23,730 nucleotides of DNA from positions 1 through 23,730 of the IMG/VR virus record IMGVR_UViG_3300021138_000171. One strand, written 5' to 3'. Within the stretch, counting starts at the first letter, position 1; every line of letters begins with the position of its first letter. The translations under genes were made by a program, and so were the position numbers. This DNA is from a virus. Shown here in pieces: positions 3,245 through 23,584 of the stretch. The notes under the pieces are model-generated. The model made no database searches. It was not told the origin of the DNA and was given only the letters and a program-made list of their open reading frames with translations.

Positions 3245-3258
3245 ACAGGACAGCTTAA

Positions 3259-3266
3259 AATAAATA
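3259..3266 (+). promoter_or_regulatory. Putative T4-type late promoter (AATAAATA)
   Basis: A one-base variant of the T4 late octamer TATAAATA lies in the 44-base gap before the fibre gene at 3289. It fits late transcription of that gene, but it is short and in AT-rich sequence. Confidence 0.4.
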
Positions 3267-3288
3267 ACTTTGGATAAAATAAAATACT

Positions 3289-5451
3289 ATGGCAGCAATA
3301 CCTTTCCCGTCAAGTCCTACATCAGGACAACAATTCACCTATAACGGTACAACATATACCTACAGTGGTGTAGTATGGACTGGCGGCGTTACCCCGGCAG
3401 CAGGCGCCAGCGGCCCGACTGGTCCAAGCGGCCCAGTAGGTGCACAGGGTTCTACAGGACAACAAGGTACTAGTATTACAATATTGAGCACAGTGGCTAC
3501 CTCTGCTAGTTTGCCAGGATCGGGCAATACATTAGATGACGGTTATGTAGCAGCGGATACTGGACATGTTTGGTTTTGGGGCAATGACTCTCAATGGCAC
3601 GATGCTGGTCCAATCGCAGGCCCTAGGGGTGTAAGTGGAGCGAGTGGTGTAACAGGTCCAAGCGGCCCTAGCGGTTCTTGTGGTCCAAGTGGCCCTGTAG
3701 GTATACGCGGAGTAAGTGGTCCTAGTGGTGCAAGTGGACCCAGCGGTGTTCAAGGAACAACCGGATATCAAGGATTCCAGGGAACAATAGGTAACCAAGG
3801 CGTCAGTGGAGCGACTGGCCCTACTGGTGTTGTTGGTCCTAGCGGCGCACAAGGGCACCAAGGAGTCAGTGGCTCTCAGGGAGCTATTGGATCAGTTGGT
3901 ACACAAGGCGTTCAGGGAAATCAAGGCGTTCAGGGAAATCAAGGCGTTCAGGGTGCACAGGGACCTAGTGGTGCACAAGGTGTTATCGGATTAACCGGAT
4001 ATCAAGGATATCAAGGACCTAGTGGTGTACAAGGGCGACAAGGCCTACAGGGATTAATAGGTCCTACAGGTGTGCAAGGCATCAGAGGGTTTCAAGGATG
4101 TACAGGTCAATGCGGCGATACAGGATTTCAAGGTGCACAAGGTGCTCGAGGCTTCCAAGGCAGTGCTGGCCCAACCGGTCCACAGGGATGTAGCGGCAGT
4201 CAGGGTGCACAGGGCGTACAAGGTAATCAAGGAAATCAAGGCGTTCAGGGATTTCAGGGCACACAGGGCATTCAGGGAGCAACAGGCAATCAAGGAAACC
4301 AAGGCGTTCAGGGACGACAAGGTGTTCAAGGCGCAACAGGAAGCCAAGGAAGCCAAGGTAGTATCGGTAATCAAGGCGTACAAGGCACAACTGGTTCTCA
4401 GGGTGTTCAGGGAGCGCAAGGTCAAACTGGTAATCAAGGCAGTCAAGGCAGTCAGGGTGTGCAGGGCAACCAAGGACAAACTGGTGTACAAGGTTTCCAA
4501 GGCAGTCAAGGATTTCAAGGTCCTAGCGGTGCACAAGGAATAACAGGTTATCAAGGATGCAACGGATTTCAAGGCAGTCAAGGGCGCCAAGGTAATCAAG
4601 GCAGCAGCGGTCCGACAGGCCCTACCGGAGTGCAAGGATGTCGTGGTGTACAGGGTTACCAAGGATCTGCTAGTACAATAAGCGGACCAACTGGCCCAAG
4701 TGGGGTATTAGGTCCAAGCGGGCCTAGTGGTGTTACAGGTCCAAGCGGTGTTACAGGACCAAGTGGTGTACAAGGCACACAGGGAAACCAGGGTAGCCAA
4801 GGTGCACAGGGAACTCCTAGCACTGTGAGCGGTCCTAGCGGTGCACAAGGACAAACTGGAACTGGTGCACAAGGGCATCAAGGTTTCCAAGGTAGTGTAG
4901 GACCTACCGGAGTACAAGGCACACAAGGTTATCAAGGTGCTGCTAGTACAGTAAGTGGCCCAACTGGTCCGACTGGTGTACAAGGCACACAAGGTTATCA
5001 AGGTGCTGCTAGTACAGTAAGTGGCCCAACTGGTCCGACTGGTGTACAAGGAGCTGCCGGAACCGGATCCTTTCCATCAAGAGCACCTGCATATGGAACT
5101 GCATATAGTCTAGCACCCAATGCAGTGGGCACTGTAACATTGACAGGATATAAAACCTATGCATTGTCTAAGGTGTTAACATCTGCAGCAGCTCGAGTTA
5201 GATTTTACACAGATGCGACTAGTCAAGCTAATGATAGCTCTAGACCACAAGGATGTAGTGCTGCTCCCGGTAGCGGATTAATAGCCGAAGTTATTACCAG
5301 TTCTACAGCACTGACTCAATTGGTAAGTCCGTCAGTTGTAGGATCAAACAATGATAGTCCAGCATCGACTAATGTCTATGTAAATGTAACTAATCTTACC
5401 GGATCTACACAGGCTATTAGTGTAGAAGCATTTCTCCTAAGATTAGAGTAA
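3289..5451 (+). CDS. Long collagen-like tail fibre protein
   Basis: This 720-aa protein shares its N-terminus with the previous fibre: a short aromatic module (PFPSSPTSGQQFTY..WTGG) and the LPGSGNTLDDGYV...WFWG insert at about 83-105. That points to attachment at the same or an equivalent virion site. Residues ~107-600 are an almost unbroken Gly-X-Y domain rich in G-x-Q, with GPSGPTG blocks. The last ~120 residues form a compact domain (YGTAYSLAPNAVGTVTLTGYKTYALSKV...VEAFLLRLE), presumably the trimerising or receptor-binding tip. Several strings of nearly identical 9-18-base units occur in the gene, and one perfect 66-base tandem duplication lies near its 3' end, so stalk length probably changes by slippage. 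The stop codon overlaps a late-promoter-like octamer. Confidence 0.85.
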   Translation: MAAIPFPSSPTSGQQFTYNGTTYTYSGVVWTGGVTPAAGASGPTGPSGPVGAQGSTGQQGTSITILSTVATSASLPGSGNTLDDGYVAADTGHVWFWGNDSQWHDAGPIAGPRGVSGASGVTGPSGPSGSCGPSGPVGIRGVSGPSGASGPSGVQGTTGYQGFQGTIGNQGVSGATGPTGVVGPSGAQGHQGVSGSQGAIGSVGTQGVQGNQGVQGNQGVQGAQGPSGAQGVIGLTGYQGYQGPSGVQGRQGLQGLIGPTGVQGIRGFQGCTGQCGDTGFQGAQGARGFQGSAGPTGPQGCSGSQGAQGVQGNQGNQGVQGFQGTQGIQGATGNQGNQGVQGRQGVQGATGSQGSQGSIGNQGVQGTTGSQGVQGAQGQTGNQGSQGSQGVQGNQGQTGVQGFQGSQGFQGPSGAQGITGYQGCNGFQGSQGRQGNQGSSGPTGPTGVQGCRGVQGYQGSASTISGPTGPSGVLGPSGPSGVTGPSGVTGPSGVQGTQGNQGSQGAQGTPSTVSGPSGAQGQTGTGAQGHQGFQGSVGPTGVQGTQGYQGAASTVSGPTGPTGVQGTQGYQGAASTVSGPTGPTGVQGAAGTGSFPSRAPAYGTAYSLAPNAVGTVTLTGYKTYALSKVLTSAAARVRFYTDATSQANDSSRPQGCSAAPGSGLIAEVITSSTALTQLVSPSVVGSNNDSPASTNVYVNVTNLTGSTQAISVEAFLLRLE
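4912..5043 (+). repeat. Perfect 2 x 66-bp tandem repeat in the collagen-like gene
   Basis: Bases 4912-4977 and 4978-5043 are identical on reading and keep the frame, encoding two copies of a 22-residue block that starts VQGTQGYQGAAS and ends GPTGPTG. The start of a third copy (GTACAAGG) follows. Identity at synonymous positions indicates a recent duplication. Confidence 0.9.
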
Positions 5452-6194: not shown

Positions 6195-6923
6195 ATGAAA
6201 AAACTATTCACGTTCTTATTCCTAGCTGTGGCTCTCTTTGCTAGCACAGGTGCATTTGCACAAATCAATCAACAGTGCCCTCAGTTTACTGTCAACGGCA
6301 CTCCGCAATATCAAGCTCACCCTGGTGATCAAGAGATTTGCCACTTAAATTTTGCAGTTATCCATCGCTGCGATGTCAAGGCTCCTGTGGCTGTTTTCGA
6401 ACACTTGACTGTAGCCGCTATGACTGGTCCTGCTAAACGCAAAGACAACTTCCACCCAGATGCCAGCGTTACTCCTGCTTGCTCTGCTAGCCTAGCTGAC
6501 TATGCCACTGTGGGTAAAACACACGACCGTGGACACATGGCTCCTGCTGGCAATAATACTCAAAGCGATGCTATTATGAGCGAGAGTTTTAATCTTTCTA
6601 ACATGGTTGCACAGAACGCTAACAACAATAGAGGCGGCTGGCGCTTACTCGAAACTGCTGAACGCCAATGGGCTATGGCTCCGGGTACCGATTTCTACAT
6701 CATCTCTGGTGGTATTTTCGATGCCGGACATCCAGTAACTGGCAATGGACTAGGTATTCCTACTCGTTTGTATAAGATCATCATCGAGAAAAATAGCAAA
6801 CAAGTTCAAGCATATCTAATGCCAAATGGCCCTATTACCCCTGCTACCAGCTGGGCTCAATACAAAACCACAATGACCGAAGTAGAAAAAGCTACCGGTA
6901 TGAAGTTTAATCTTGGACAATAA
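6195..6923 (+). CDS. Secreted DNA/RNA non-specific endonuclease (EndoG/Serratia nuclease type)
   Basis: This 242-aa protein begins with a clear signal peptide (MKKLFTFLFLAVALFASTGAFA, cleavage after residue 22), so it should be exported by Sec. The mature part has the beta-beta-alpha-metal nuclease signature DRGHMAPAGN at residues 111-120, with His114 as the expected general base. The matching metal-site block NNNRGGWRLLE follows, with Asn145 and Glu153 at the positions of the Serratia nuclease Asn and Glu. Four cysteines (29, 49, 59, 96) could form disulfides outside the cytoplasm. The family cuts DNA and RNA with little sequence preference. In a phage it might degrade periplasmic DNA, help exclude competing phages, or act after lysis; these roles are inference. 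A late-type promoter and a good ribosome site precede it. Confidence 0.9.
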   Translation: MKKLFTFLFLAVALFASTGAFAQINQQCPQFTVNGTPQYQAHPGDQEICHLNFAVIHRCDVKAPVAVFEHLTVAAMTGPAKRKDNFHPDASVTPACSASLADYATVGKTHDRGHMAPAGNNTQSDAIMSESFNLSNMVAQNANNNRGGWRLLETAERQWAMAPGTDFYIISGGIFDAGHPVTGNGLGIPTRLYKIIIEKNSKQVQAYLMPNGPITPATSWAQYKTTMTEVEKATGMKFNLGQ

Positions 6924-7622: not shown

Positions 7623-8042
7623 ATGCACATTACTGAACTACTAGAGGGTATAGAAGGACTTGAACACCATAAGAAACTGTTTATGGAAATGTTTAAGAAA
7701 TTCTTACCTCTAGCCATGCACTATATTAAACTTAAATCTTTACCCAAGATGAAGTTTGAAGCACATATACACGATGATGTGCAGCCTACATTTGGCAAAT
7801 ATGACACCGGGGAGCGCACCCTTTATGTGGCATTGTTGAATCGTCACCCTAACGATATTTTAAGAACAATTGCTCATGAACTTGTCCATTTTCGCCAAGA
7901 CACTCAACACAAATTAGAACCAGATAGCGGCACTACTGGTAGCCCACATGAGAATGAGGCCCATGCCGTCGCTGGTGTAGTCCTTCGCCACTTTAATAAA
8001 CTCTATCCCGAGTATCTATCGGCTAAACCGATAACTGAATAA
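7623..8042 (+). CDS. HExxH zinc metalloprotein (putative metallopeptidase)
   Basis: This 139-aa protein contains the zinc-binding motif HELVH at residues 85-89, within a hydrophobic helix (ILRTIAHELVHFRQD). A later HENEAH segment (109-114) has Glu112 as a plausible third ligand. This arrangement is that of gluzincin-like peptidases, and small HExxH proteins of similar size occur in T4-like phages of aquatic bacteria. The substrate is unknown; virion maturation or cell-wall work are possibilities. The N-terminus MHITELLEG resembles those of other short proteins here (11122, 11514, 13683) and may be a capsid-targeting tag. No Shine-Dalgarno sequence precedes the ATG. A strong terminator begins within the stop codon. 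Confidence 0.75.
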   Translation: MHITELLEGIEGLEHHKKLFMEMFKKFLPLAMHYIKLKSLPKMKFEAHIHDDVQPTFGKYDTGERTLYVALLNRHPNDILRTIAHELVHFRQDTQHKLEPDSGTTGSPHENEAHAVAGVVLRHFNKLYPEYLSAKPITE

Positions 8043-8072
8043 GAGAAAGCACCCGAAGGTGCTTTCTCTTTT
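8041..8072. terminator. Strong bidirectional terminator between convergent genes
   Basis: A 13-bp perfect stem (8041-8053 with 8058-8070, AAGAGAAAGCACC/GGTGCTTTCTCTT) has a four-base loop. It ends in a short T run on the plus strand. Read on the minus strand the loop is C(TTCG)G, the very stable UUCG tetraloop. It separates the plus-strand gene ending at 8042 from the minus-strand gene ending at 8123 and probably serves both. Confidence 0.88.
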
Positions 8073-8122
8073 CATACTATATTATAATGGCTACGCCACT
8101 TTATATTTTTATTGAATAATAT

Positions 8123-8404
8123 TTATTTCTTTGTGGTGCTGCCGGCATTTACAAAGGCATACATCTTTTCAGCAGTTTCCAATACTTTGTCTAGTCCTGG
8201 AAATTGTGGCATCTCAACTGATGTAATAACTTGACCAGTCTTGCTGTCGCGTTCTGCTTTAAGTTCCCAACCTTGGAAAGCAACGCGATATTCAGTTTCT
8301 ACTAGGTCTTTGGCCATGCCTAGAATGTCGCTTCTAATTTCATATCCGTTTCTGGACTGGTTAACTTTAAACTCTGGTAGTTTAGGTGTTTCGAATTTTG
8401 ACAT
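8123..8404 (-). CDS. Small conserved phage protein, function unknown
   Basis: This 93-aa soluble protein begins MSKFETPKLPEFKVNQ and contains RNGYEIRSDILGMAKDLVE, an amphipathic middle, and VLETAEKMYAFVN near the end. Short proteins with the RNGYEIRxDxL pattern seem familiar from T4-like phages of aquatic bacteria, but no function is established that I know of. A strong ribosome site (AAGGAGAA) precedes the ATG, and a late-promoter-like octamer lies 62 bases upstream on the same strand. It is the last gene of the minus-strand block and is transcribed separately from the GNAT gene, with about 100 bases between. Confidence 0.75.
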   Translation of the reverse strand: MSKFETPKLPEFKVNQSRNGYEIRSDILGMAKDLVETEYRVAFQGWELKAERDSKTGQVITSVEMPQFPGLDKVLETAEKMYAFVNAGSTTKK

Positions 8405-8466
8405 ATTATATTCTCCTTATGTGTGTTTAATGTCTGTGTAAGCAGTATAAAACTTAACTGCCTATA

Positions 8467-8474: not shown

Positions 8475-8508
8475 ATACAGCAATATATCTGTAATAAATC
8501 TAATCTGA

Positions 8509-9072
8509 CTAAAATAGCAGACTAGGTTTTGCCAGAGCACGCTTGCTCCAGTAGTCCCATACACCTAGCTGTGTGTCTACAGTCTCGCCTAGATAAGCAC
8601 CAAAGTCAGCAGGTGCTAGTTTAATATCTGCCAGTGCTTCATCGCATTCGTTCTCAACGGTGATGCCATACTTGCGGCATAGGTGGCGAATCTTGCTGTT
8701 AGAACGCAAGCAGACCATACATCCATCAAGATACCCGTGTATTCTGCACCATTGGATACATCGTGCCATTAACCTATTGCCTAGGCCCTGCCCCTGATAG
8801 TCTTTATGAACGCTGAAGGCCAGTTCCATCTTACGACCTTCTTCCAAGGCAATGTGCCCTACAGCAATAAAATTAAGATCGCTGTCTTCGATGGCAAATA
8901 GAATGTGATTGTAGTGCTTGGCTTCTACACTGTCGCAGAAATTGTCAATTACAAGATCAGAGACTGGATTAGCAAACCGAAGTGTCCTAGATTCTGCATC
9001 CAAGGCTTTAAGGTGGTCGCGATATTTAGAGTACTCACCTTGTAGTACCCTTCTAATAGTTTGGCCCGGCAT
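8509..9072 (-). CDS. GNAT-family N-acetyltransferase
   Basis: This 187-aa protein has the GNAT acetyl-CoA site: a beta strand (MELAFSVHKDY, residues 82-92) followed by QGQGLGNRLM (93-102), matching the family's Q/R-x-x-G-x-G/A motif A. The helix after it (ARCIQWCRIHGY) and the strand MVCLRSNSKI fit the rest of the fold. Upstream, TLRFANPVSD resembles the start of acetyltransferases related to the bacterial Pat/RimI-like groups. It would transfer an acetyl group from acetyl-CoA to an amine; the substrate is unknown and could be a host protein. It is the third gene of a minus-strand operon, nine bases after the 35-aa membrane peptide gene, with AAGG before its ATG. Confidence 0.85.
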   Translation of the reverse strand: MPGQTIRRVLQGEYSKYRDHLKALDAESRTLRFANPVSDLVIDNFCDSVEAKHYNHILFAIEDSDLNFIAVGHIALEEGRKMELAFSVHKDYQGQGLGNRLMARCIQWCRIHGYLDGCMVCLRSNSKIRHLCRKYGITVENECDEALADIKLAPADFGAYLGETVDTQLGVWDYWSKRALAKPSLLF

Positions 9073-9081
9073 AGTTCAGCC

Positions 9082-9189
9082 TTACTTAACATTGGCAAAC
9101 AGTTTTATGGCCAAAGCCATTTGTGTGGCATAAATTGCTAGGGCAGTTACTAGGAACCAGCTAGATTTCTTAAAGATTTTGCTGATCAT
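9082..9189 (-). CDS. 35-aa single-pass membrane peptide
   Basis: This ORF encodes MISKIFKKSSWFLVTALAI... ending in KLFANVK. A basic N-terminus is followed by one hydrophobic span (about residues 11-32), so it should insert in the inner membrane. Its ATG overlaps the TGA of the upstream gene (ATGA), and the GNAT gene starts nine bases after its stop, so its place in a tight operon supports it as real despite its length. Possible roles include superinfection exclusion or lysis timing, but the sequence gives no direct evidence for either. Confidence 0.65.
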   Translation of the reverse strand: MISKIFKKSSWFLVTALAIYATQMALAIKLFANVK

Positions 9190-9353
9190 AGATAACTCCC
9201 ACGGCGACTCATACGATCGTACTGGCGAATATAGTAGTCTACTTCGGCAGCATTGGTTGGGTTTTGAGATTCAATAAAGCGCTCTAGATTGTTTTCTTTT
9301 GAGCTAAACATTTCGCCTAGTTTTGCTAGGGCTAATGTAATATATGTTAACAT
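9186..9353 (-). CDS. 55-aa small protein, DUF3563-like in appearance
   Basis: The frame is open from 9398, but the preferred start is the ATG at 9353 because AAGGAAA lies about eight bases before it. The protein (MLTYITLALAKLGEMF...) has a mildly hydrophobic N-terminal helix, then a polar helical part with LERFIESQNP and AAEVDYYIRQYDRMSRRG. The pattern of a 'residues-in-pairs' helix ending in YDRMSRRG recalls short DUF3563-type proteins of bacteria and phages; this is a tentative match. It is first in a minus-strand operon behind an exact TATAAATA and is coupled by ATGA to the membrane peptide gene. Confidence 0.65.
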   Translation of the reverse strand: MLTYITLALAKLGEMFSSKENNLERFIESQNPTNAAEVDYYIRQYDRMSRRGSYL

Positions 9354-9416
9354 TTTGTGTTTCCTTTTCTGTGTGTTATATAAAGATATCAGTATCATGG
9401 TTTCTACTGATATGTT

Positions 9417-9424
9417 TATTTATA
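9417..9424 (-). promoter_or_regulatory. T4-type late promoter on the minus strand, exact TATAAATA
   Basis: An exact octamer on the minus strand, 63 bases before the ATG at 9353. It would drive the three-gene minus-strand operon that ends with the GNAT gene. Confidence 0.7.
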
Positions 9425-9458
9425 CGAGTATGTGCGGTTGCAGCATAAAAGTCAATAG

Positions 9459-9487
9459 TTGTATTTTACCAAAATGTCGTGTATACT
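9459..9487 (+). promoter_or_regulatory. Sigma-70-like promoter, with overlapping ACTAAATA
   Basis: TTGTAT (9459-9464) and TATACT (9482-9487) are separated by exactly 17 bases, which is good host-type promoter geometry. ACTAAATA (9485-9492), a late-promoter variant, overlaps the -10. The gene at 9515 could therefore be read both early and late. Confidence 0.55.
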
Positions 9488-9514
9488 AAATATTAGAAAC
9501 AAAAGGAAACAGCC

Positions 9515-9814
9515 TTGAAACGTGTCACCCGCAGTCTGCTAGAAGAACTTAATAGTATCTCTGAACGTAAAAATGGTGAAGCCATCATCGAAGCTCGTGC
9601 TACCCACGTAATCGATAGTGCCATTAACCTATTAAGTCTAATCAAAGAGAATTTTAATCCAGAAGAAGCCTACGAACTAGAGCGCAGACTTATCAATTCA
9701 ATCAAAGGCGGTGATGCTAGTAAATTTACTCGCAGTATTCGTAAACTACGCGACAATAAAGAAACTGCCAAAACTTTTAAGATCATCGAAGGTGATCTAA
9801 AAGACGAAGATTAA
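9515..9814 (+). CDS. Small helical protein with TTG start, possibly prohead/core-related
   Basis: The best start is a TTG at 9515: AAAAGGAAA lies just upstream at the right distance, and no ATG is available near it. The 99-aa product is charged and almost wholly alpha-helical: MKRVTRSLLEELNSISER, then IIEARATHVIDSAINLLSLIKENF, ERRLINSIKGGDASKFTRSIRKL, and an acidic tail. It has no signal peptide or membrane span. Small helical proteins of this type occur near head genes in T4-like phages. I cannot assign it to gp67 or gp68. The LLEE near residue 8 fits a prohead-protease LxE site, which is speculative. Confidence 0.75.
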   Translation: MKRVTRSLLEELNSISERKNGEAIIEARATHVIDSAINLLSLIKENFNPEEAYELERRLINSIKGGDASKFTRSIRKLRDNKETAKTFKIIEGDLKDED

Positions 9815-9845
9815 ACTACCATTATAAGTATTTTTTTCCAAAAGA

Positions 9846-9853
9846 CATAAATA
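9846..9853 (+). promoter_or_regulatory. Putative late promoter (CATAAATA)
   Basis: A one-base variant of the late octamer lies 56 bases before the ATG at 9910, upstream of a leader hairpin and a strong ribosome site. Confidence 0.6.
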
Positions 9854-9865
9854 CTACTACAGAAA

Positions 9866-9882
9866 CACTCCGGAGCGGAGTG
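9866..9882 (+). promoter_or_regulatory. 5' leader hairpin before a highly expressed-looking gene
   Basis: CACTCC (9866-9871) pairs with GGAGTG (9877-9882) around a five-base loop. It lies between the late promoter and the AAAGGAGAT ribosome site of the 9910 gene and leaves that site free. Such hairpins can stabilise abundant phage late mRNAs. Confidence 0.5.
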
Positions 9883-9909
9883 GACATAACTGATTAAAGG
9901 AGATATATT

Positions 9910-10335
9910 ATGTCAGCAGGAATCACAAGAGTACACGGAACAGCTATTGTTCCATCACAACGTCCATCTACAATTAGCTTTTTTACAGCTACTTTCCCAA
10001 GCATGGACATCCACACCAGCGAAGTTGGTGTTGTTAACGGCGTTTTCGACCAAGTATTTCGTGTAGCAGCCAACAGCTTCGCTACAGTTGCTATGATTGG
10101 TACACCAGCTTATGCAGCTTCTAACACAACCATTCGTTTCGCTCTAGAAGACACTGGTACAGTTAGCGACACAGGTCAACCAGCTCCAAGCGGTCTAGGT
10201 CTAGGTTCTAGCGAAGGTAACAGCTATGGAACTACAGCTTTGGCACTACAAGCTGCTATTCGTGGTCTAGGCAATTCCGTTGGTCCTAACGGTGTTGACT
10301 TAACTAGCGTTACAGTTGCTGGTTTTACACTATAA
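9910..10335 (+). CDS. Probable abundant structural protein, family unknown
   Basis: This 141-aa protein has no cysteine, no signal peptide and a beta-rich, Ser/Thr/Val/Gly-rich composition (MSAGITRVHGTAIVPSQRPS..., FDQVFRVAANSFATVAMIG, ...DLTSVTVAGFTL). It has its own transcription unit: a late promoter, a leader hairpin, the best ribosome site seen here (AAAGGAGA) and a strong terminator. That set-up is typical of a protein made in large amounts late in infection, such as a head decoration or tail protein. The role is inferred from expression signals alone, since I recognise no family. Confidence 0.75.
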   Translation: MSAGITRVHGTAIVPSQRPSTISFFTATFPSMDIHTSEVGVVNGVFDQVFRVAANSFATVAMIGTPAYAASNTTIRFALEDTGTVSDTGQPAPSGLGLGSSEGNSYGTTALALQAAIRGLGNSVGPNGVDLTSVTVAGFTL

Positions 10336-10356
10336 TCTAATCTAAACATTAGATAC

Positions 10357-10387
10357 AAAAGGGAGTTTTTTAACTCCCTTTTTTTAC
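10357..10387 (+). terminator. Strong rho-independent terminator
   Basis: AAAA, then GGGAGTT (10361-10367), a TTTT loop, AACTCCC (10372-10378) and a long T run. It closes the single-gene unit at 9910-10335 just before an exact late promoter. Confidence 0.9.
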
Positions 10388-10390
10388 GGC

Positions 10391-10398
10391 TATAAATA
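10391..10398 (+). promoter_or_regulatory. T4-type late promoter, exact TATAAATA
   Basis: An exact octamer directly after the terminator and 17 bases before the ATG at 10416. It probably drives the dense cluster 10416-12171. Confidence 0.72.
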
Positions 10399-10415
10399 TG
10401 TTATATAGGTAGTTT

Positions 10416-10844
10416 ATGTATACATTTGAAATTAAAACCTTGGTTGATGTTACCAACACACAGGTGGCTAGACCTAACCAAGGTTCTCCACTGGAGTACG
10501 ACCAAAATAGAAATTTTATCACACTGAGACAATGTGTAGAATTACGCAGCATTGTGAGTTATCAAGTCCCACCCCAGGTTGAAAAAATTGATCTAAAGGA
10601 GTTGGGCTTTGGCACTGACTATAAAGGTAAACATCGTGTGTGGACATTTTCCTTTAGTCCCGATCGTGATGGTGTGTATACTAGTGCTGCTGGAGATATA
10701 TTGGGATTGTTGCTCGATGATCTAGACGGTGTGCCAATCATTAAAAATCTTACAGAAACGGTAAATATTGACAAGGCGATCTTTGACTGCAAAGATATCG
10801 CCGCTAAAAATACAATCATCAAGGCACATTTAGGCACAATTTAA
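10416..10844 (+). CDS. Conserved T4-like phage hypothetical protein
   Basis: This 142-aa soluble protein begins MYTFEIKTLVDVTNTQV and contains the stretches FITLRQCVELRSIVSY, DLKELGFGTDYKG and RVWTFSFSPDRDGVY. From memory, proteins with this layout (an EIKTLVDVT-type start, a central LRQ-type helix and a KGKHRVWTF strand) recur among T4-like phages of aquatic bacteria, without an assigned function. No signal peptide, membrane span or catalytic motif is visible. It is the first gene after a late promoter and leads a run of small genes. Confidence 0.75.
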   Translation: MYTFEIKTLVDVTNTQVARPNQGSPLEYDQNRNFITLRQCVELRSIVSYQVPPQVEKIDLKELGFGTDYKGKHRVWTFSFSPDRDGVYTSAAGDILGLLLDDLDGVPIIKNLTETVNIDKAIFDCKDIAAKNTIIKAHLGTI

Positions 10845-10878
10845 GGCACCGTACTACTCAACTGAAGGAGCTACCCAA

Positions 10879-11118
10879 ATGTCCACCGGACCGATTATTG
10901 ATATAGAAAAAACAAACCTAGAAGCGCACGTTGACCTGTGTGCCCAACGTTACAAGAGCCTAGACGACAGATTGACTTCCATCGAAGGTAAATTTGATTC
11001 GTTAAAGAAACTAATCGAAGATGGCCACTCTAGTATGACCAAGGTCATTATTGGCACTGCTGGCACTGTTATTACAGGTGTCCTAGGTTTAATTGTTGTA
11101 ATACTACAAAAACATTAA
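10879..11118 (+). CDS. Coiled-coil protein with C-terminal membrane anchor (holin/XhlA-like candidate)
   Basis: This 79-aa protein has a helical N-terminal part (residues ~10-50, with the heptad-like region YKSLDDRLTSIEGKFDSLKKLIEDG) and a single hydrophobic span at about 55-76 (VIIGTAGTVITGVLGLIVVIL) before a short basic end. This plan, a soluble coiled coil followed by one membrane helix, is that of XhlA-type haemolysin/holin-associated proteins of phages. It may take part in lysis or bind the inner membrane. A GAAGGAG ribosome site precedes the ATG. The lysis role is inferred from shape alone. Confidence 0.7.
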   Translation: MSTGPIIDIEKTNLEAHVDLCAQRYKSLDDRLTSIEGKFDSLKKLIEDGHSSMTKVIIGTAGTVITGVLGLIVVILQKH

Positions 11119-11121
11119 AAT

Positions 11122-11517
11122 ATGAAAATCAGAGAATTGTTAGAACAAACAGTCGCACCAGTGCCTCCCGGACAGGCCAGTGGTGATAATCCCACAACAC
11201 CTACAGAAGGTCCTCCTAACACTTCTAACACACCTCAGACAACACAGCCTACAGGTACAGCACCTGCAACTCCAGCGGGGCAAACACCACAGCCTACACT
11301 AGGCAATCAAAACCCTCAATCCCCTGCTCCTGGACAACAAGGCAATCCTGCTACACCACAAGTTGGTAAGCCAATGGGTCAGCAACAACAACCTAATCCA
11401 CAGCAGCAACAAAGCCAACAGCAGATGAATCAGTTGACACAGCAGATTCAAGCACTACAAAAACAACAACAGGCTCTACAACAAAAGCTAGGCCAACCTC
11501 AACAGGCACAGGTATGA
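11122..11517 (+). CDS. Low-complexity Pro/Gln/Thr-rich protein with MKIRELLE start
   Basis: This 131-aa protein begins MKIRELLEQ and then turns into disordered sequence rich in P, T, G, N and Q, ending in a glutamine-rich helix (QQQMNQLTQQIQALQKQQQ). It has no folded domain or membrane span. The start matches neighbours with unrelated bodies (11514, 7623, 13683) and fits a targeting tag with a possible LLE cleavage site at residues 6-8. A phage internal or core protein is the best guess. It starts three bases after the preceding stop, and its own stop overlaps the next ATG (ATGA). Confidence 0.7.
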   Translation: MKIRELLEQTVAPVPPGQASGDNPTTPTEGPPNTSNTPQTTQPTGTAPATPAGQTPQPTLGNQNPQSPAPGQQGNPATPQVGKPMGQQQQPNPQQQQSQQQMNQLTQQIQALQKQQQALQQKLGQPQQAQV

Positions 11518-15039: not shown

Positions 15040-15765
15040 ATGACACCTACATTTACTCCTCCTCCGTTTGTTGAACGATTCCAATATAAAAACTGTGTAC
15101 AGGTAAATGATCCTGTAACTCGCAAACGATCGTATCGAACTCCCGACGGAGAATCGTTGCCCAGCGTGACCACTATCCTTGGTGCTACCAAAGATCAAAC
15201 ACACTTGATTGAATGGCGCAAACGAATTGGTGAGGAAAAGGCCGCCCAGATTACCAAAGAGGCTAGTGGTGTTGGGACTGGCCTTCACGCTAATTTGGAG
15301 AGGTTCTTGGTTGGCGAAGTTCGCCAACCTGGTAATAATCCTGTTCACGTTAAAGCCAATGCTATGGCAAATATTATTATCGAAAATGGATTAAAGGACG
15401 TTGACGAAGTATGGGCTATGGAACAAAGTCTATACTATAAGGGACTATACTCGGGCACAACTGATCTAGTATGCGTTTATAAAGGTAATCCTTGTATTGC
15501 CGATTACAAACAAACCAATCGTCCAAAGAAAGCAGAATGGGTTGAAGATTATTATCTGCAACTCATGGCGTATATCATGGCCCATAACAATACATATGGA
15601 ACTGATATGCGTGAAGGACATATCTTTATGGTTAGTAGGGGTGATGATGGAATGAAGCCTGGTGGAGAGGTATATCAACAGTTTGATCTACTACCAAAAG
15701 ATTTTAACAAATATCAAGATATGTGGCTTGATAAAGTTGAAGAATATTACAAATTAACTAAGTAA
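15040..15765 (+). CDS. PD-(D/E)XK exonuclease, RecB/Cas4-like
   Basis: This 241-aa protein carries the RecB-type nuclease motifs in order: GTGLHANLE (His83), an acidic position in WAMEQSLYY (Glu128), YSGTTDLV (Asp142), IADYKQTN (Asp155 and Lys157), and QLMAYIMAH (Gln174, Tyr178). The G-T-x-D, D-Y-K and Q-x-x-x-Y spacing is characteristic, and the length fits a stand-alone exonuclease. Proteins of this kind in T4-like phages act on DNA during replication, recombination or host DNA breakdown. It is soluble with no signal peptide. The end overlaps that of the minus-strand homing endonuclease by 12 bases. Confidence 0.85.
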   Translation: MTPTFTPPPFVERFQYKNCVQVNDPVTRKRSYRTPDGESLPSVTTILGATKDQTHLIEWRKRIGEEKAAQITKEASGVGTGLHANLERFLVGEVRQPGNNPVHVKANAMANIIIENGLKDVDEVWAMEQSLYYKGLYSGTTDLVCVYKGNPCIADYKQTNRPKKAEWVEDYYLQLMAYIMAHNNTYGTDMREGHIFMVSRGDDGMKPGGEVYQQFDLLPKDFNKYQDMWLDKVEEYYKLTK

Positions 15766-16413
15766 TTTCCGTTTAGCCCACGCATCTTTTAGTTTGGCTT
15801 TAGTCTTTTCTGACAGTTTTCTACCAGCACCCCTACCTTTAGTTTTTTCAGACATTTTTTTCTTATATTCTTCTGAGTAGGTTTTTCCTTTATTAAATTC
15901 AGATAGTTTTTTCTTAGCACTATCCGACATTTTATAACCTGTTCTAGCCTCGGACATTTTTTGTTTAGTTTCTTCCGATTTAGGCTTTCCTTTTAGTGCT
16001 GAGGGTTTTCCCTTGTGAATATTTGATATCTTCTGTTTAGTTTCTTCGCTATGAGATCTGCCCTTCATTGGAGATGGATGCCCTTTCAAAGAATTTGATA
16101 TTTGTAATCTAATTTTTTCAAATTTTCTAGAAGTTGGAATATAACGATCTTGATTGCCGTTAGTAGTTAACATTCGATTTAATGCATAGGCCATTTTATA
16201 ACGAAAATTTCCTGATGTCATCCTAACTAGTAATAAATGACATATAAAATGTTCTTTTGGCGTTAATTTAACTAAATTCTCTTTTGAATTACTTCCACCG
16301 CAGGATTTAGGAATAATATGGTGTTTTTCAATATATCCTGTAGGTGTACGAGAATTGGCGTTGGCTACAATACTGTAATACCAACGAGTGTATTTGTTGT
16401 CTATAAATATCAT
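15754..16413 (-). CDS. HNH homing endonuclease with NUMOD3 repeats
   Basis: This 219-aa protein has an HNH nuclease core at residues 27-59 (GYIEKHHIIPKSCGG, then NLVKLTPKEHFICH), with the His-His, Asn and final His expected for metal and catalysis. The C-terminal half holds about five basic NUMOD3-type DNA-binding repeats (SEETKQKIS, SEETKQKMSEA, SDSAKKKLSEF, SEEYKKKMSEK, SEKTKAKLKD). Such free-standing enzymes spread by cutting related genomes that lack them. It is opposite in strand to all its neighbours and AT-rich, consistent with insertion. A GGAGGA ribosome site precedes the ATG, and an exact late promoter lies upstream on the same strand. Whether it is active is unknown. Confidence 0.92.
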   Translation of the reverse strand: MIFIDNKYTRWYYSIVANANSRTPTGYIEKHHIIPKSCGGSNSKENLVKLTPKEHFICHLLLVRMTSGNFRYKMAYALNRMLTTNGNQDRYIPTSRKFEKIRLQISNSLKGHPSPMKGRSHSEETKQKISNIHKGKPSALKGKPKSEETKQKMSEARTGYKMSDSAKKKLSEFNKGKTYSEEYKKKMSEKTKGRGAGRKLSEKTKAKLKDAWAKRKLLS

Positions 16414-17593: not shown

Positions 17594-19921
17594 ATGATCA
17601 CAGTGGTCAAACGTAATGGAGAGAGCGTTCCTCTCGATATTTCAAAGATTCAAAGACAAGTAGCCCATGCTTGCACAGGTATAGACGGTGTCAGTCCTAG
17701 CATGGTGGAAATTAAAGCACAGATAGAACTACACGATGGCATGACCACAGAGACAATAGACGAACTATTGCTTAAAGCCATGGTAGACTTAATAGACGAA
17801 ACAGAAAACCCAGAAATCAACAACGTAAATTATCAATACGTAGCAGGGCGCCAGCGTGTCAGTATGCTGCGTAAAGAAGTCTACGGTAGTTATACCCCTC
17901 CCAAATTATTTGACATTGTTAAGAAGAATGTTAGCCTAGGTATGTATACTCCCGAACTGCTAGATTGGTATACAGAAGATGAATGGAACATCATTGATCT
18001 CTTTATTGACCATAGCAAAGACGAAGACTATACCTATGCTGCTATCGCACAGCTAACAGAAAAGTATTTGGTGCAGAATCGTGCCACTAATACCATCTAC
18101 GAAACTCCGCAAGTTCGCTATGCCATTGCCGCCGCCACAGCGTTCCACGCAGAACCCAAAGACAAGAGATTAAAATATGTTAAAGAATACTATGAATGTG
18201 CCAGCGATGGCCACTTTACCCTTGCTACACCAGTATTGGCTGGGTTGGGCACTACCACTAAGCAGTTTTCAAGCTGCGTGCTTATTAGCTCAGATGACAC
18301 CCTGGACAGTATATTTGCCGCAGGCGAAATGATGGCCAAATATGCTTCAAAACGAGCTGGAATTGGCCTAGAAATCGGCCGAATCCGCCCCTTAGGAGCA
18401 CCGATTCGCAACGGAGAAATCAAACACACGGGTATGATACCATTCTTGAAGAAATGGTTCGCTGACCTACGCTCTTGCTCGCAGGGCGGGATTCGTAACG
18501 CAAGTTGCACAGTTACTTTTCCCATCTGGCATTACCAATTCGAAGATCTTATTGTACTGAAAAATAATCAAGGCACCGAAGAAACTCGCGTTCGTCAAAT
18601 GGATTACTCTGTGGTAGTCAATAAGATGTTCTGGAATCGTTATAAGAATAATCAAACCATTACACTATTTGATCCGCACGAAGTTCCGGATCTATATGAA
18701 GCCTATTATCGTAGCACAGAAGAATTTGAACAACTATACTTGAACTATGAAAAGCATCCGACAATTAAAAAGAAAGTCGTATCGGCAGATGAGATATTCA
18801 AAAATCAAATTCTTAAAGAAAGGACTGATACGGGTCGCATATACCTTGTCAATATCGACAATGTCATCGCGCAGGGCCCATTTGATACAACAGTTGATCC
18901 AATTTATCAATCCAATCTATGCCAAGAGATCCTTCTACCCACAAGACCTTTCCAGAGAATTGAAGACTCTACGGGACGAATTGCTCTTTGCACTCTTGGC
19001 AGCATCAACTGGGGCGCCTTCCGTAACCCTCAGGAAATGAAAAAGGCCTGCCGAGTGCTGGTACGCTCATTGAGTAATCTATTGAGTTACCAAGACTTCT
19101 TGTCAGTGCAAAGCGAACTGGCCAATAAAGAGTTTGAACCACTGGGCGTTGGTATTACCAATTTAGCCTATTGGCATGCCAAACGCAACTTCAAGTATGG
19201 TACTGAAGAAGCCTTAAAAGAAGTCAAACGCTGGATGGAGCACCAAGCCTATTACCTTACCGATATGAGTGTTGAGCTTGCCCAAGAGAAGGGCCCCTGC
19301 ACACGTAGTGAACATACATTCTACGGTAAGGGAGTATTTCCTTGGGAACGCCGCAACACCGGTGTTGATGAATTAACAGACTTCGCACCTAGCCTAGACT
19401 GGGAGCCACTGCGTGAACGTATGAAACAATATGGTATTCGCAATGCTACCTTAATGGCTGTGGCACCCGTTGAATCTAGTTCAGTTGTACTCAACTCCAC
19501 CAACGGTATTGAAATGCCAATGGAGTTGATCAGTGTCAAGGAATCCAAAGCCGGCTCGTTCGTGCAAGTAGTTCCTGAATATCGTAGATTAAAGAATCGC
19601 TATCAACTAATGTGGGAACAGAAAGACTGTGCAGGTTATCTAAAGACCAGTGCAGTGTTGGCAGCGTATATTGATCAGTCGTTGAGTACAAACACTTTCT
19701 ATAATCCTGCACACTTTGCCGATGGTAAGGTTCCCGGCACATTAATTGCCAAGAATCTAATGTTGGCCTACAAGTGGGGTTTGAAGACCATGTACTACAG
19801 TTTGATAAACAAAACTGGTGCTAAGAATATTTTAAATACTCAAACTGATAGATTAATCACTGTCGAGCCTGTTACAGTATATGCAGAGCTTGAAGATGAT
19901 TGCGAAGCCTGCAAGCTCTAA
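17594..19921 (+). CDS. nrdA: Ribonucleoside-diphosphate reductase, large subunit (class I)
   Basis: This 775-aa subunit reduces ribonucleoside diphosphates to deoxy forms. Residues 1 to ~95 form the ATP-cone (MITVVKRNGESVPLDISKI..., RQRVSML), so dATP inhibition is possible. The expected active-site residues are present: Cys228 (SSCVLISS), Asn441, Cys443 and Glu445 (SNLCQEILLP), Cys466 (IALCTLGS), and a Tyr-Tyr pair in KTMYYSLI. The C-terminal shuttle cysteines are Cys770 and Cys773 (CEACKL); E. coli NrdA has four residues between its pair, this one two. nrdB follows after ten bases and glutaredoxin after that, giving a complete reductase set. An AAGG lies rather far upstream of the ATG; no late octamer was seen, which fits early or middle expression. 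Confidence 0.97.
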   Translation: MITVVKRNGESVPLDISKIQRQVAHACTGIDGVSPSMVEIKAQIELHDGMTTETIDELLLKAMVDLIDETENPEINNVNYQYVAGRQRVSMLRKEVYGSYTPPKLFDIVKKNVSLGMYTPELLDWYTEDEWNIIDLFIDHSKDEDYTYAAIAQLTEKYLVQNRATNTIYETPQVRYAIAAATAFHAEPKDKRLKYVKEYYECASDGHFTLATPVLAGLGTTTKQFSSCVLISSDDTLDSIFAAGEMMAKYASKRAGIGLEIGRIRPLGAPIRNGEIKHTGMIPFLKKWFADLRSCSQGGIRNASCTVTFPIWHYQFEDLIVLKNNQGTEETRVRQMDYSVVVNKMFWNRYKNNQTITLFDPHEVPDLYEAYYRSTEEFEQLYLNYEKHPTIKKKVVSADEIFKNQILKERTDTGRIYLVNIDNVIAQGPFDTTVDPIYQSNLCQEILLPTRPFQRIEDSTGRIALCTLGSINWGAFRNPQEMKKACRVLVRSLSNLLSYQDFLSVQSELANKEFEPLGVGITNLAYWHAKRNFKYGTEEALKEVKRWMEHQAYYLTDMSVELAQEKGPCTRSEHTFYGKGVFPWERRNTGVDELTDFAPSLDWEPLRERMKQYGIRNATLMAVAPVESSSVVLNSTNGIEMPMELISVKESKAGSFVQVVPEYRRLKNRYQLMWEQKDCAGYLKTSAVLAAYIDQSLSTNTFYNPAHFADGKVPGTLIAKNLMLAYKWGLKTMYYSLINKTGAKNILNTQTDRLITVEPVTVYAELEDDCEACKL

Positions 19922-19931
19922 GGAATAAAAA

Positions 19932-21026
19932 ATGTCAAAAGCACAATACGATTTAGTCACGCCAACAAATTATCTAAAACGTAAAATGTTTTTAGATGGA
20001 GCTGTGACTGTACAACGATTCGAAGAATTTCGCTATCCCAAGATAGCCAAGTTTGAAGAACTGGCTCGTGGATTCTTTTGGGTTCCTGAAGAAATCAGTC
20101 TTACCAAAGACAAGATGGATCACAAAGATGCCACTGAAGCAGTTAAACATATTTTTACCAGTAACCTATTAAGACAAACAGCCTTGGACAGTATCCAGGG
20201 TCGTGCACCAAATCAAGTTTTTGGTCCAGTGGTATCTATCCCTGAACTAGAAGCATTGATCAGTAACTGGAGTTTCTTTGAAACGAATATTCATTCAAAG
20301 AGCTACAGTCACATTATAAGGAATGTCTATGGTGTACCAAAAGAAGAATTTAATAAAATCCACGATACACAAGAAATTGTGTCAATGGCTGCTAATGTCG
20401 GTAGATACTACGAAGCGTTACACACGCTCAACTGCCGCAAAGAGTTGGGTGAGGAAATTTCGACAATGGAACATAAACGTGCTATCTGGTTGGCTCTGCA
20501 GGCCAGCTACGCACTCGAAGCCCTAAGATTCATGGTATCATTTGCTACATCATTGGCCATGGTTGAAAATAAAATCTATATCGGCAACGGTAATATCATT
20601 AGTTTGATCTTGCAAGATGAATTGCTACACGCAGAATGGACTGCTTGGTTGATCAATCAATGTGTTAAAGATGATCCAGATTTTGCCCAGTTAGAAACTG
20701 AGTGTGCTGAAGAAGTCTATGCTATGTATATGGAAGTTATTGCAGAAGAAAAAGCATGGGCTGACTATCTATTCAAGAAAGGTCCTGTGATTGGACTTAA
20801 CGCAGACATTCTAAAGAACTTTGTTGACTATTCAGCATTTACTCGCCTTAAAGACATAGGCATTAAATATCTAGGCGATCATCCTAAGAGCAGCCCCATC
20901 CCATGGTTTAACAAACACGTTAACATAGGTAAGAAACAGGCCGCTTTGCAGGAAACGGAATCTACCAATTATGTAATTGGTGTGATGAGCGACAATGTTA
21001 GCTATGATGAACTACCAGATTTATAA
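19932..21026 (+). CDS. nrdB: Ribonucleoside-diphosphate reductase, small subunit (class I)
   Basis: This 364-aa protein carries the diiron-tyrosyl site. By alignment with E. coli NrdB the ligands are Asp86, Glu117, His121, Glu196, Glu230 and His233, and the radical tyrosine is Tyr125 (SKSYSHIIRN). The C-terminal Tyr of NYVIG matches Tyr356 of the radical path, and the end DELPDL would dock on NrdA. One oddity: the first ligand pair reads E-T-N-I-H, one residue more than the usual E-x-x-H (E. coli ETIH), which would shift the helix locally. The later pair is normal (ELLH). AAGGA precedes the ATG, and glutaredoxin follows 17 bases after the stop. Confidence 0.96.
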   Translation: MSKAQYDLVTPTNYLKRKMFLDGAVTVQRFEEFRYPKIAKFEELARGFFWVPEEISLTKDKMDHKDATEAVKHIFTSNLLRQTALDSIQGRAPNQVFGPVVSIPELEALISNWSFFETNIHSKSYSHIIRNVYGVPKEEFNKIHDTQEIVSMAANVGRYYEALHTLNCRKELGEEISTMEHKRAIWLALQASYALEALRFMVSFATSLAMVENKIYIGNGNIISLILQDELLHAEWTAWLINQCVKDDPDFAQLETECAEEVYAMYMEVIAEEKAWADYLFKKGPVIGLNADILKNFVDYSAFTRLKDIGIKYLGDHPKSSPIPWFNKHVNIGKKQAALQETESTNYVIGVMSDNVSYDELPDL

Positions 21027-21043: not shown

Positions 21044-21292
21044 ATGACTAAAGCAATTGTTTGGAGTAAGTATCACTGTACCTTCTGTGAACAAGCCAAG
21101 GCATTATTAAATCAACGCGGTATTCCTTTTGAGGAACGTAAGATTGGTGACGGTTATACCAAAGAAGATTTATTAGAAGCAGTGCCTACTGCTCGTACTG
21201 TTCCGCAGATTTTTATCAATGAAAATCTAATCGGTGGCTTTACCGAACTCAAGAAATATATTGAGGAAACGGCTGGCGGGTATGGCGACTAA
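21044..21292 (+). CDS. Glutaredoxin
   Basis: This 82-aa protein has the glutaredoxin active site C-T-F-C at residues 12-15, the cis-proline loop TVPQIF (Pro54) and the GG motif (64-65, NENLIGG) that binds glutathione. It is the usual size for a small glutaredoxin. Placed right after nrdB, its role is to re-reduce the C-terminal cysteines of NrdA. AAAAGGAAA lies upstream of the ATG. Its last 11 bases overlap the start of the next gene. Confidence 0.95.
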   Translation: MTKAIVWSKYHCTFCEQAKALLNQRGIPFEERKIGDGYTKEDLLEAVPTARTVPQIFINENLIGGFTELKKYIEETAGGYGD

Positions 21293-21872
21293 AGAAGATC
21301 TTGATAAAATCAAAGAGGCATTAGGTGGAGTAAAAGCCGCCGAAGTTTCTTGCGGAGAGAAGTCTGCAGGTCTAATAGCCCAAGAAGTTGACGAAGCATA
21401 TAATCATATTACTTTAAACTCTTCTAGCCTCCCGCCGTTGACTACTATAGACATTTCTACGCTGAATTCATTATGGGGTAATATTACCTGCAATGGTGCA
21501 ACTGGTAGTAGTAGCAGTGGATCTATACTAGGTAATGGAGCCAATGGTTCTAGCGGTTCTTATTTAACTGGCAGTATGTCAGGAACATATAATTGGCATC
21601 AACCCGGCGGCCCCTATACCATTTCTACTGCTCCATTGACTACCACAAAGGCTAGTTTAGAAGTTGCTGGCGATGCTAATTTCGACGGCGATATCAAATG
21701 GAAGGGTCGTAGCCTAGGCGATTTGTTGGAAACTATAGAAAAGAGATTGGCCATACTCGCACCTGATCCAGAGAAGTTAGAACACTTTGAAGCATTGCAA
21801 AAGGCCTACGAACATTATAAAACTTTAGAAGCATTGTGCACAATGCCAACAAAAGAAGATCCGATTAATTAA
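21282..21872 (+). CDS. Putative structural protein with conserved C-terminal module
   Basis: The frame is open from 21234, but the ATG at 21282 (MATKEDLDKIKEALGG) is the better start: it gives an 11-base overlap with glutaredoxin instead of 59 and a sensible helical N-terminus. The 196-aa protein has a helical N-terminal part (GLIAQEVDEAYNHI), a Ser/Gly/Asn-rich middle, and a C-terminal module containing DGDIKWKGRSLGDLLETIEKR and LAILAPDPEKLEHFEALQKAYEHYK. That module seems familiar from T4-like phage proteins of aquatic bacteria, with no known function. The Gly/Ser-rich centre suggests a virion component, which is odd in a nucleotide-metabolism operon. Confidence 0.7.
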   Translation: MATKEDLDKIKEALGGVKAAEVSCGEKSAGLIAQEVDEAYNHITLNSSSLPPLTTIDISTLNSLWGNITCNGATGSSSSGSILGNGANGSSGSYLTGSMSGTYNWHQPGGPYTISTAPLTTTKASLEVAGDANFDGDIKWKGRSLGDLLETIEKRLAILAPDPEKLEHFEALQKAYEHYKTLEALCTMPTKEDPIN

Positions 21873-21879
21873 GGTAAAA

Positions 21880-22287
21880 ATGACAACAAAGAAATTATGG
21901 AGTGCTATTGACGGCACCACACTAAAAAGTCTGCCCAATGCAGCAAAAGGATATGAACAACGAATTAGTATTCCTGAATTTACATTTCTAGGAGTGCACA
22001 ACCAACCAGACTTTGGAGACATTACTATTTGGTTCTATGGTAAAGATAAAACCATAGAACTAAAAAGTCTAAAAGAGTATCTATTCCAATATAGAGATAC
22101 TGTGATCAGCTACGAACGTGCCATGGATGTAATGTATAAGCACTTGATGGCTGCTTACGAACCAGATCGTATTAGAATAGAAATAGAGTTCCGTCCCCGT
22201 GGCGGCATCTCAAGTAAACTAACAGTCGACAGCGATTGGGGACACTTAGGTGGTACTGATCAACATTGGCAACATCATAAAAATTAA
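21880..22287 (+). CDS. QueF-like (T-fold) protein lacking the catalytic cysteine
   Basis: This 135-aa protein matches the unimodular QueF fold: [15 protein letters not shown] (residues 34-48), [14 protein letters not shown] (60-73), [13 protein letters not shown] (75-87) and FRPRGGIS (104-111). These correspond to the family's FTSLCP..QPDF, ESKSLKLY, FHE and PRGGI blocks. In QueF a cysteine attacks the nitrile of preQ0; here the position holds Gly38, the loop is one residue shorter, and the whole protein has no cysteine. The FHE histidine is a Tyr (SYE), while the purine-contacting Glu79 and Asp44 are kept. It therefore should not reduce preQ0 by the known mechanism. It may bind a deazapurine or pterin, or have a new chemistry. 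It lies seven bases after the previous gene and seven before ahcY. Confidence 0.75.
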
Positions 22288-22294
22288 GGAATAT

Positions 22295-23584
22295 ATGACC
22301 GATTATAAAGTAGCAGACATTGCCCTAGCAGCCTGGGGACACAAAGAGATTGCAATTGCTGAATCAGAAATGCCAGGTTTGATGGCGATTTTAGCAGAGT
22401 ATCAAGATCAACAACCTCTAGCAGGTGCTCGTATTGTTGGATCATTGCACATGACCATTCAAACAGCCCTGTTGATCAAAGTATTGGTCAAATTAGGTGC
22501 CAGTGTTCGTTGGAGCAGTTGTAATATTTTCTCCACACAGGATCATGCTGCGGCTGCTGTTGCCGATCTAGGTATTCCTGTTTTTGCTTGGAAAGGCGAA
22601 ACTGAAGAAGAATATTGGGACTGTATCGAGCGCACCTGTACTGGCCCCGATGGCTGGACTCCTAACATGATTCTCGATGACGGGCACGACCTAACCTGGT
22701 GGATCATTAACAAGCATCCGGAATTGGTAGCAGGTATTGTTGGTGTTAGCGAAGAAACTACTACAGGTATCTATCGTATCAAGGAAGCCATTGCTGCTGG
22801 TACATTTCCATTCCGTGCGTTCAATGTCAATGACAGTGTAACTAAATCTAAGTTTGACAACTTGTATGGTTGCCGAGAAAGTCTAGTGGACGGTATCAAA
22901 CGAGCCACTGATGTTATGATTGCAGGTAAAGTTGCTGTAGTTGCTGGCTACGGCGATGTGGGCAAAGGTTCGGCACAGGCACTTCGTGCACTAAGTGCTC
23001 AGGTATGGGTAACTGAGATCGATCCTATCAATGCACTACAGGCTGCTATGGAAGGCTATCGTGTGGTTACCATGGAATATGCTGCCGACAAAGCAGACAT
23101 TTTTGTAACAGCCACAGGCAATGTTAATGTCATCACAAGAGCACATATGGATGCTATGAAAGATCAAAGCATTGTATGTAATATTGGGCACTTTGATAAT
23201 GAGATTGATGTTGCTAGCCTCAATGATTGCACTTGGGATGAAATCAAACCACAAGTCGATCATGTTGTATTCCCAGACGGTAAGAAAATTATCTTGTTGG
23301 CCAAGGGCAGACTTATCAACCTAGGCTGCGCCACAGGACATCCTAGTTTTGTTATGAGCAATAGTTTTACCAACCAAGTTCTAGCACAGATTGAATTGTG
23401 GACCAATCCCGGCCAATATAATGTAGGTGAATTGTATACATTACCCAAACATTTAGATGAAAAAGTTGCTAAGTTGCATTTAAATAAGATTGGTGCTATG
23501 CTAACTACATTGACAAAAGAACAAGCTGATTATATCGGTGTTGACCAAAGTGGCCCATATAAACCAGAAACTTATAGGTACTAA
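22295..23584 (+). CDS. ahcY: S-adenosylhomocysteine hydrolase (adenosylhomocysteinase)
   Basis: The frame is open from 22250, but AAGGA lies just before the ATG at 22295, giving a 429-aa protein of normal family length. It splits S-adenosylhomocysteine to adenosine and homocysteine. All the family residues are present: His52 (LHMTIQTA), Asp128 (ILDDGHD), Glu153 (VSEETTTGI), Lys184 and Asp188 ([16 protein letters not shown]), Cys193, the NAD site GYGDVGKG (218-225), and the C-terminal KPETYRY tail that closes the neighbouring subunit's site. The only deviation noticed is His131 where many homologues have Gly in DDGGD. The enzyme looks active. In a phage it would lower SAH and so help SAM-dependent methyltransferases. 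Confidence 0.96.

Follow-up and report, generated by a model that had tools for sequence, protein, structure and literature searches.

The window, i.e., the entire 23,730-nucleotide stretch of viral DNA that was analyzed, carries toward its end a series of genes on the plus strand, among which is a small member of the QueF family that we name QueF*:

17594..19921, plus strand: ribonucleotide reductase large chain (upstream context, Pfam)
19932..21026, plus strand: ribonucleotide reductase small chain (upstream context, Pfam)
21044..21292, plus strand: glutaredoxin (upstream context, Pfam)
21234..21872, plus strand: open reading frame with no PHROG match, its GTG start assigned mechanically and its stop 7 nt before the start of QueF*; grouped with the other genes by position only
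21880..22287, plus strand: QueF*, a cysteine-less QueF-family protein of 135 residues in an open reading frame
22295..23584, plus strand: ahcY, S-adenosylhomocysteine hydrolase, with its ATG at 22295, 7 nt past the stop of QueF*

Both Pfam and NCBIfam bear out the identity of the downstream gene as ahcY, which had been proposed from the bare sequence, and it is likely that ahcY and QueF* constitute a single operon concerned with the SAM cycle.

The sole Pfam domain recovered in QueF* of the window at an E-value of 0.01 is QueF itself (PF14489; E = 2.1e-18, 66.7 bits against a cut-off of 27.3), with neither PF02219 (MetF) nor PF01227 nor any other family being matched. Since there is no PF01227 match at this threshold, the label 'GTP cyclohydrolase' given to the phage family of QueF* in PHROG (5949) is misleading; this label and the NCBI name QueF-II/'preQ(1) synthase' are probably both wrong. 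The corresponding NCBIfam profile, TIGR03139, scores the window protein at 79.9 bits, below its cut-off of 86.9, and three of nine relatives above it (L139, 89.6; L178, 88.5; L046, 97.3; matched stretches only). At the structural level, an AF2 model (pLDDT 88.7, pTM 0.84) has as its closest solved fold the C55A mutant of QueF (4fgc; Z 16.0, 126 aligned residues, rmsd 2.8, TMq 0.75); next come the archaeosine synthase QueF-L (5jyx; Z 13.2) and GTP cyclohydrolase I (Z about 13), with dihydroneopterin aldolase also present in the list.

Alignment with the solved B. subtilis QueF (PDB 4f8b/4fgc), a unimodular NADPH-dependent preQ0 reductase of the QueF-II type, brings out both the retained and the altered elements. 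The two proteins share the fold over most of the chain, the QPD(F) motif (D44 of QPDF in QueF*, equivalent to Asp62), a Glu (Glu79, facing the E97Q-mutant column), a motif of the E-x-K-(S/A)-x-K type (ELKSLK, 60-65) and PRGGI (106-110). In contrast, Gly38 of QueF* faces the C55A-mutant column, the loop is one residue shorter, with the gap two places past Gly38, Tyr78 stands in place of His96 (the His of FHE) and Ala81 in place of Cys99, while a DSDW motif (117-120) has been added, which is absent from the nine phage QueFs aligned and is equally fixed in the QueF* rows. The preliminary description is thereby upheld in most respects: the QueF framework is kept, with QPDF, the Glu and PRGGI all in place; Gly replaces the catalytic Cys in a loop with one residue less; Tyr replaces the His of FHE; the nucleophile for the thioimide is missing; and profile searches leave the protein within the QueF family. 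Its statement that there is no Cys anywhere holds for the whole 135-residue translation of the window protein but does not extend to QueF* in general, as 27 of 85 viral relatives retain a Cys at the position of Cys99.

Viral relatives came from a first scan (at least 48 loci) and a second, profile-based scan (80 of 182 confirmed); the 110 loci fetched yielded, once 25 duplicates were dropped, 85 distinct contigs, many of them near relatives of each other. A genome scan provided the bacterial relatives (80 of 201 confirmed), the 80 loci representing 79 genomes, with L206 and L209 being copies in one genome. Within these best 80 of 201, the hosts belong to the Bacteroidota, Gammaproteobacteria, Thermodesulfobacteriota and Neomarinimicrobiota/Fidelibacterota. 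Gly occupies the Cys55 position in all 85 distinct viral and all 79 parsed bacterial relatives (of the best 80 of 182 and 80 of 201, respectively). None of the patterns used in the second viral scan contained this Gly; the genome scan and the first viral scan each had a single pattern with it. The QueF* of Chitinophaga varians (L205), whose recorded sequence has a frame broken near the start of the gene, was left out of this count. Because Gly is found at this position throughout both sets, sequencing error and chance are excluded as its source. The catalytic Cys itself is kept in all nine aligned phage QueFs. Across 41 aligned QueF* rows, G38, D44, E79, Y78, E60, L61, K65 and PRGGI are invariant, with K62 nearly so and S63 variable. 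A tree built from 29 QueF* rows and 16 rows of other QueFs sets the former apart from the latter by a branch supported at 100/99. The INPHARED phage collection contributes 75 records matching QueF*, every one of them at less than 60% identity.

Two sets of genes were counted in the viral flanks. On the SAM-cycle side, ahcY is found in 40 of the 85 contigs (in 37 of these within 400 nt of QueF*), metK in 32 (18 within 400 nt), and one or both in 64; metF, metH and thyX were found in none of the 85 flanks. On the deazaguanine side, QueE is present in 21, QueD in 17 and FolE in 10 (any of the three in 26), and all 21 loci with QueE also carry ahcY or metK. Both sets come together in the 210-kb contig behind L012 (L082/L252), where FolE, PTPS/QueD, QueE, MetK, QueF* and AhcY are lined up in that sequence over some 8 kb. 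Far from this row, the same contig (G009) encodes a QueC-like protein (L053:1072-1692, 27.3 bits); a second ATP-pyrophosphatase-like open reading frame lies at L052:1309-2238, and no transglycosylase was found there.

The recurrent neighbors in bacteria, unlike those of QueF-II, are methionine and folate genes. Counting all 80 bacterial loci, with neighbor domains assigned by Pfam on representatives, we found that 38 have a gene of folate one-carbon metabolism no more than 600 nt from QueF*: metH in 25, thyX in 10, a pterin-binding methyltransferase alone in two (L186, L199) and metE in one. A frequent position of QueF* in the Bacteroidota is between the two parts of a split metH, where it overlaps the end of the first part, as at L147:

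6998-8002: metH_N
7992-8429: QueF*
8475-11156: metH_C

In three loci (L147, L168 and L208), metF follows metH_N-QueF*-metH_C in one operon. The same operon occurs without metF at L146 and L149, in genomes lacking PF02219, and these two arrangements are possibly a snapshot of gene displacement. In four Gammaproteobacteria, QueF* is instead divergent from a full-length metH. No folate gene comes within 600 nt of QueF* in the other 42 loci; recurrent among them are an m5U methyltransferase (11), riboflavin synthase (6), ferritin (5) and methionine aminopeptidase (4), the last two names being read from the sequence, as is riboflavin synthase beyond its Lum_binding domain. At L207, the only such locus, the neighbor is metE, encoding the B12-independent synthase, as against the B12-dependent metH elsewhere; with both kinds of synthase adjoining QueF*, the common item is therefore methyl-THF.

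The distribution of MetF, assessed via PF02219, was surveyed in 296 genomes of one class, a tool-drawn sample that shares some genomes with a hand-picked set of 35. QueF* is present in 12 of the 296 (225-245 bits) and other QueFs in 25 (31-76 bits); all 20 canonical QueFs read, of those 25, keep the catalytic Cys, and no other QueF was detected at an E-value of 0.001 in the 12 QueF*-bearing genomes. PF02219 is found in 269 of the 296, and is absent from 11 of the 12 QueF* carriers as against 16 of the 284 other genomes (Fisher p = 5e-12, with the genomes treated as unrelated and their kinship ignored); for G324, the absence is deduced from its not being among the matches listed. The twelfth carrier, G270, has a weak PF02219 match only (9.8e-25). 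The neighborhoods of QueF* in the 12 carriers vary (split metH, riboflavin synthase and others) and do not represent one arrangement. The genomes may be incomplete.

Each of the 35 hand-picked genomes carries QueF*; PF02219 is present in 23 (two of the matches being weaker, at 135.9 and 105.9 bits) and absent from 12. Where QueF* adjoins metH (14 of the 35), eight genomes are without PF02219, one has the weaker match of 105.9 bits (L202/G058) and five possess it. The eight Chitinophaga and the eight Marinilabiliaceae-type genomes all carry PF02219 as well as QueF*, with QueF* more than 600 nt away from metH. Three gammaproteobacterial genomes, namely G032, G040 (Pleionea sediminis, an isolate) and G042, combine a QueF* divergent from full-length MetH with the absence of PF02219 and a separate long QueF whose Cys and FHE are intact. 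The MetH of G040, the one of the three that was scanned, has the pterin-binding/folate domain; these organisms should need methyl-THF while being without its known maker, as searched for with PF02219. In all, an intact long QueF (Cys and FHE) stands beside QueF* in 12 of the 35 genomes, and QueF* is therefore not needed there for preQ1.

Hence, we propose that QueF* is likely to be a 5,10-methylene-tetrahydrofolate reductase (MTHFR) that depends on NAD(P)H, works without flavin, is built on the QueF scaffold and, in phages, feeds the SAM cycle. We infer the reaction, the residue roles and the flux during infection from what is observed, namely the sequence, the predicted fold, the family, the gene neighbors and the absence of MetF. 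In the canonical reaction, QueF passes a hydride from NADPH to the exocyclic carbon of the nitrile on C7 of 7-deazaguanine, for which a thiol is needed as the activating group. PMC5485725 describes a thioimide on Cys55 as preceding the NADPH reduction of the C7 nitrile, and QueF-L as starting likewise with Cys21, the equivalent of Cys55. In methylene-THF, the exocyclic carbon on N5 would sit where the preQ0 nitrile carbon does, with C7 of the deazaguanine corresponding to N5 of the pterin. Going by established chemistry, 5,10-methylene-THF would open to an iminium that takes up the hydride directly, and the Cys would be dispensable because the iminium accepts a hydride without a thiol. Gly38 and the shorter loop might then provide space for the N10/p-aminobenzoyl arm; by analogy with QueF, Glu79 could hold the pterin edge and Asp44 could donate a proton to N10; and the cofactor would be bound by ELKS-K and PRGG, which we take to be the NADPH motifs. 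Replacement of Cys by Gly with retention of the Asp, the Glu and the cofactor motifs would be the expected trace of such a change of substrate.

The 5-methyl-THF so produced would feed MetH or MetE. Alongside AhcY, which turns SAH into homocysteine, and in many cases MetK, which makes SAM from Met, a phage MTHFR might keep the host SAM cycle running during infection. Regeneration of SAM takes four activities, of which these would be three, with the host supplying the remaining one, methionine synthase. The resulting SAM could serve DNA methylation or the radical-SAM enzyme QueE. We consider it probable on balance that these proteins form a new class of MTHFR, of about 140 residues and flavin-free, which arose from a nitrile reductase minus its nucleophile, provides methyl-folate to bacteria without MetF in several phyla, and was acquired by phages together with ahcY and metK, the three forming a module for the SAM cycle. 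The MTHFR reading is weakest where a genome holds QueF* as well as MetF, where metF sits inside a metH-QueF* operon (three cases, in which the two would be redundant), and in the QueE-linked phages. Further points against it are the 42 bacterial loci with no folate gene close by and the viral flanks, in which metF, metH and thyX were not found.

Under this proposal, QueF* would be the non-homologous counterpart of MetF on a T-fold scaffold. The flavin-dependent MetF, a TIM barrel with FAD, would share with QueF* its reaction and metabolic place and is near-exclusive with it in the 296 genomes, but the two have no sequence relation and differ in fold. A flavin-free reaction has a precedent in the MSMEG_6596-type MTHFR of Mycobacterium, described in PMC7857596 as a flavin-independent, distant relative of MetF, whereas QueF* is of QueF descent. 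The T-fold relative QueF-L likewise offers a precedent for the QueF scaffold supporting a different reaction; according to PMC5485725 it retains Cys21 and the thioimide, while QueF* has neither, with Gly at the equivalent site.

Several of the same observations bear on other readings. QueF* might be a different one-carbon folate or pterin enzyme, e.g., a dihydrofolate/dihydropterin reductase or a methyl-THF partner of MetH, MetE or ThyX, which would agree with its ThyX and pterin-binding neighbors, with the sharing of the metH operon by metF and QueF* in three loci, and with the presence in the fold list of GTP cyclohydrolase I and dihydroneopterin aldolase, relatives within the T-fold that bind pterins. 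However, such an activity would not by itself account for the absence of MetF in 11 of 12 carriers, and the product of ThyX is THF rather than DHF, so that no DHFR is required; we regard this as an unlikely alternative. A helper specific to MetH or B12 is disfavored by the metE that adjoins QueF* at L207. Loss of both the nucleophile and the His of FHE might also be read as the mark of a catalytically dead QueF retained for binding or regulation. Yet Asp44, Glu79, E60, L61, K65 and PRGGI are invariant across phages and four bacterial phyla, and DSDW, which the aligned QueFs lack, is just as fixed and active-site-like, making a dead enzyme highly improbable.

A role closer to that of the parent family would be action on a 7-deazaguanine (CDG, ADG, preQ0 or a DNA-bound form), whether to modify the DNA of the phage or to make preQ1 independently of a Cys. 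Membership in the QueF family, the FolE, QueD or QueE genes near QueF* in 26 viral loci, the QueC-like protein over the cut-off in the 210-kb contig and the lack of another QueF in the 12 carriers are in its favor, and Asp44 could, by chemical inference, protonate C7 in a decarboxylation of CDG. The search for queC/D/E, folE and a transglycosylase that the preliminary description had suggested was made in 28 of the at least 48 viral records, searched whole and mostly fragments, with a mixed outcome: QueE was found in nine, PTPS in eight and FolE in five; QueC was over the cut-off in three, barely (24.1 to 27.7 bits as against 22), and not found in 25; and TGT (PF01702) was found in none. Four DpdA queries matched annotated phage records only and returned nothing from the window, from the viral loci or from the 210-kb record, which was searched as 11 pieces; a divergent DpdA could be missed in this way. 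Against a deazaguanine substrate also stand the long QueF with its Cys in 12 of the 35 host genomes, the Cys kept in every canonical QueF read, and the metH, metE and thyX neighbors and MetF absence, which it does not predict. We regard this reading as quite improbable overall. As the main role, deazaguanine DNA modification was set aside because no transglycosylase was found in the 28 viral records, 25 of which also yielded no QueC, and because of the bacterial context, and an ordinary preQ1 synthase with another nucleophile is disfavored by the genomes holding a long QueF and by the unexplained absence of MetF. Of the two options raised earlier, base modification or a new reaction, it is thus the new reaction that appears likely, while neither the TGT/DpdA searches nor the methionine and folate ties support a main function in modifying DNA with deazaguanines. 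Nevertheless, the phage subset linked to QueE, QueD and FolE points to deazaguanine there, and we keep this as a rival for the QueE-linked phages. DpdL, which Cui et al. are said to have predicted in NAR in 2023 to be a phage CDG decarboxylase found among deazaguanine genes and acting on the QueE product, is a phage enzyme like the phage subset of QueF*, and the two are possibly identical.

If QueF* is indeed an MTHFR, then: (i) a missing step in the making of methyl-folate would be filled in many genomes; (ii) a misnamed family would be corrected, in which three of nine relatives pass the NCBI preQ1-synthase cut-off; (iii) a nitrile reductase would have turned into an iminium reductase through the loss of its thiol; and (iv) phages would carry an MTHFR with AhcY and/or MetK, by which SAM flow is sustained. 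The available portions of the open-access literature consulted (PMC6884629, PMC5485725, PMC7857596, PMC9026213, PMC5041015, PMC6593275, PMC13329287) contain no link between QueF and MTHFR; its publication elsewhere is possible.

The remainder of the window and some of the related loci offer a few further observations. Two large proteins encoded at 1454-5451 on the plus strand contain long collagen-like G-x-x repeats (many units resembling GPSGPTG or GAQGxQG) and perhaps function in the tail or in adhesion; long open stretches are also present on the opposite strand. At 6195-6923 on the plus strand lies a DNA/RNA non-specific endonuclease (PF01223, 2.5e-36), whose start we read as signal-peptide-like. 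A NUMOD3/HNH homing-type endonuclease on the minus strand (15754-16413) adjoins a PD-(D/E)XK nuclease gene (15040-15765), and an open reading frame that comes after QueF* in L023 falls into the same BLAST cluster. Finally, in L207:5279-10473, from a Bacteroidales MAG, QueF* has an anaerobic ribonucleotide reductase (NRDD) on one side and metE on the other, and ribonucleotide reductase genes precede QueF* in the window too.
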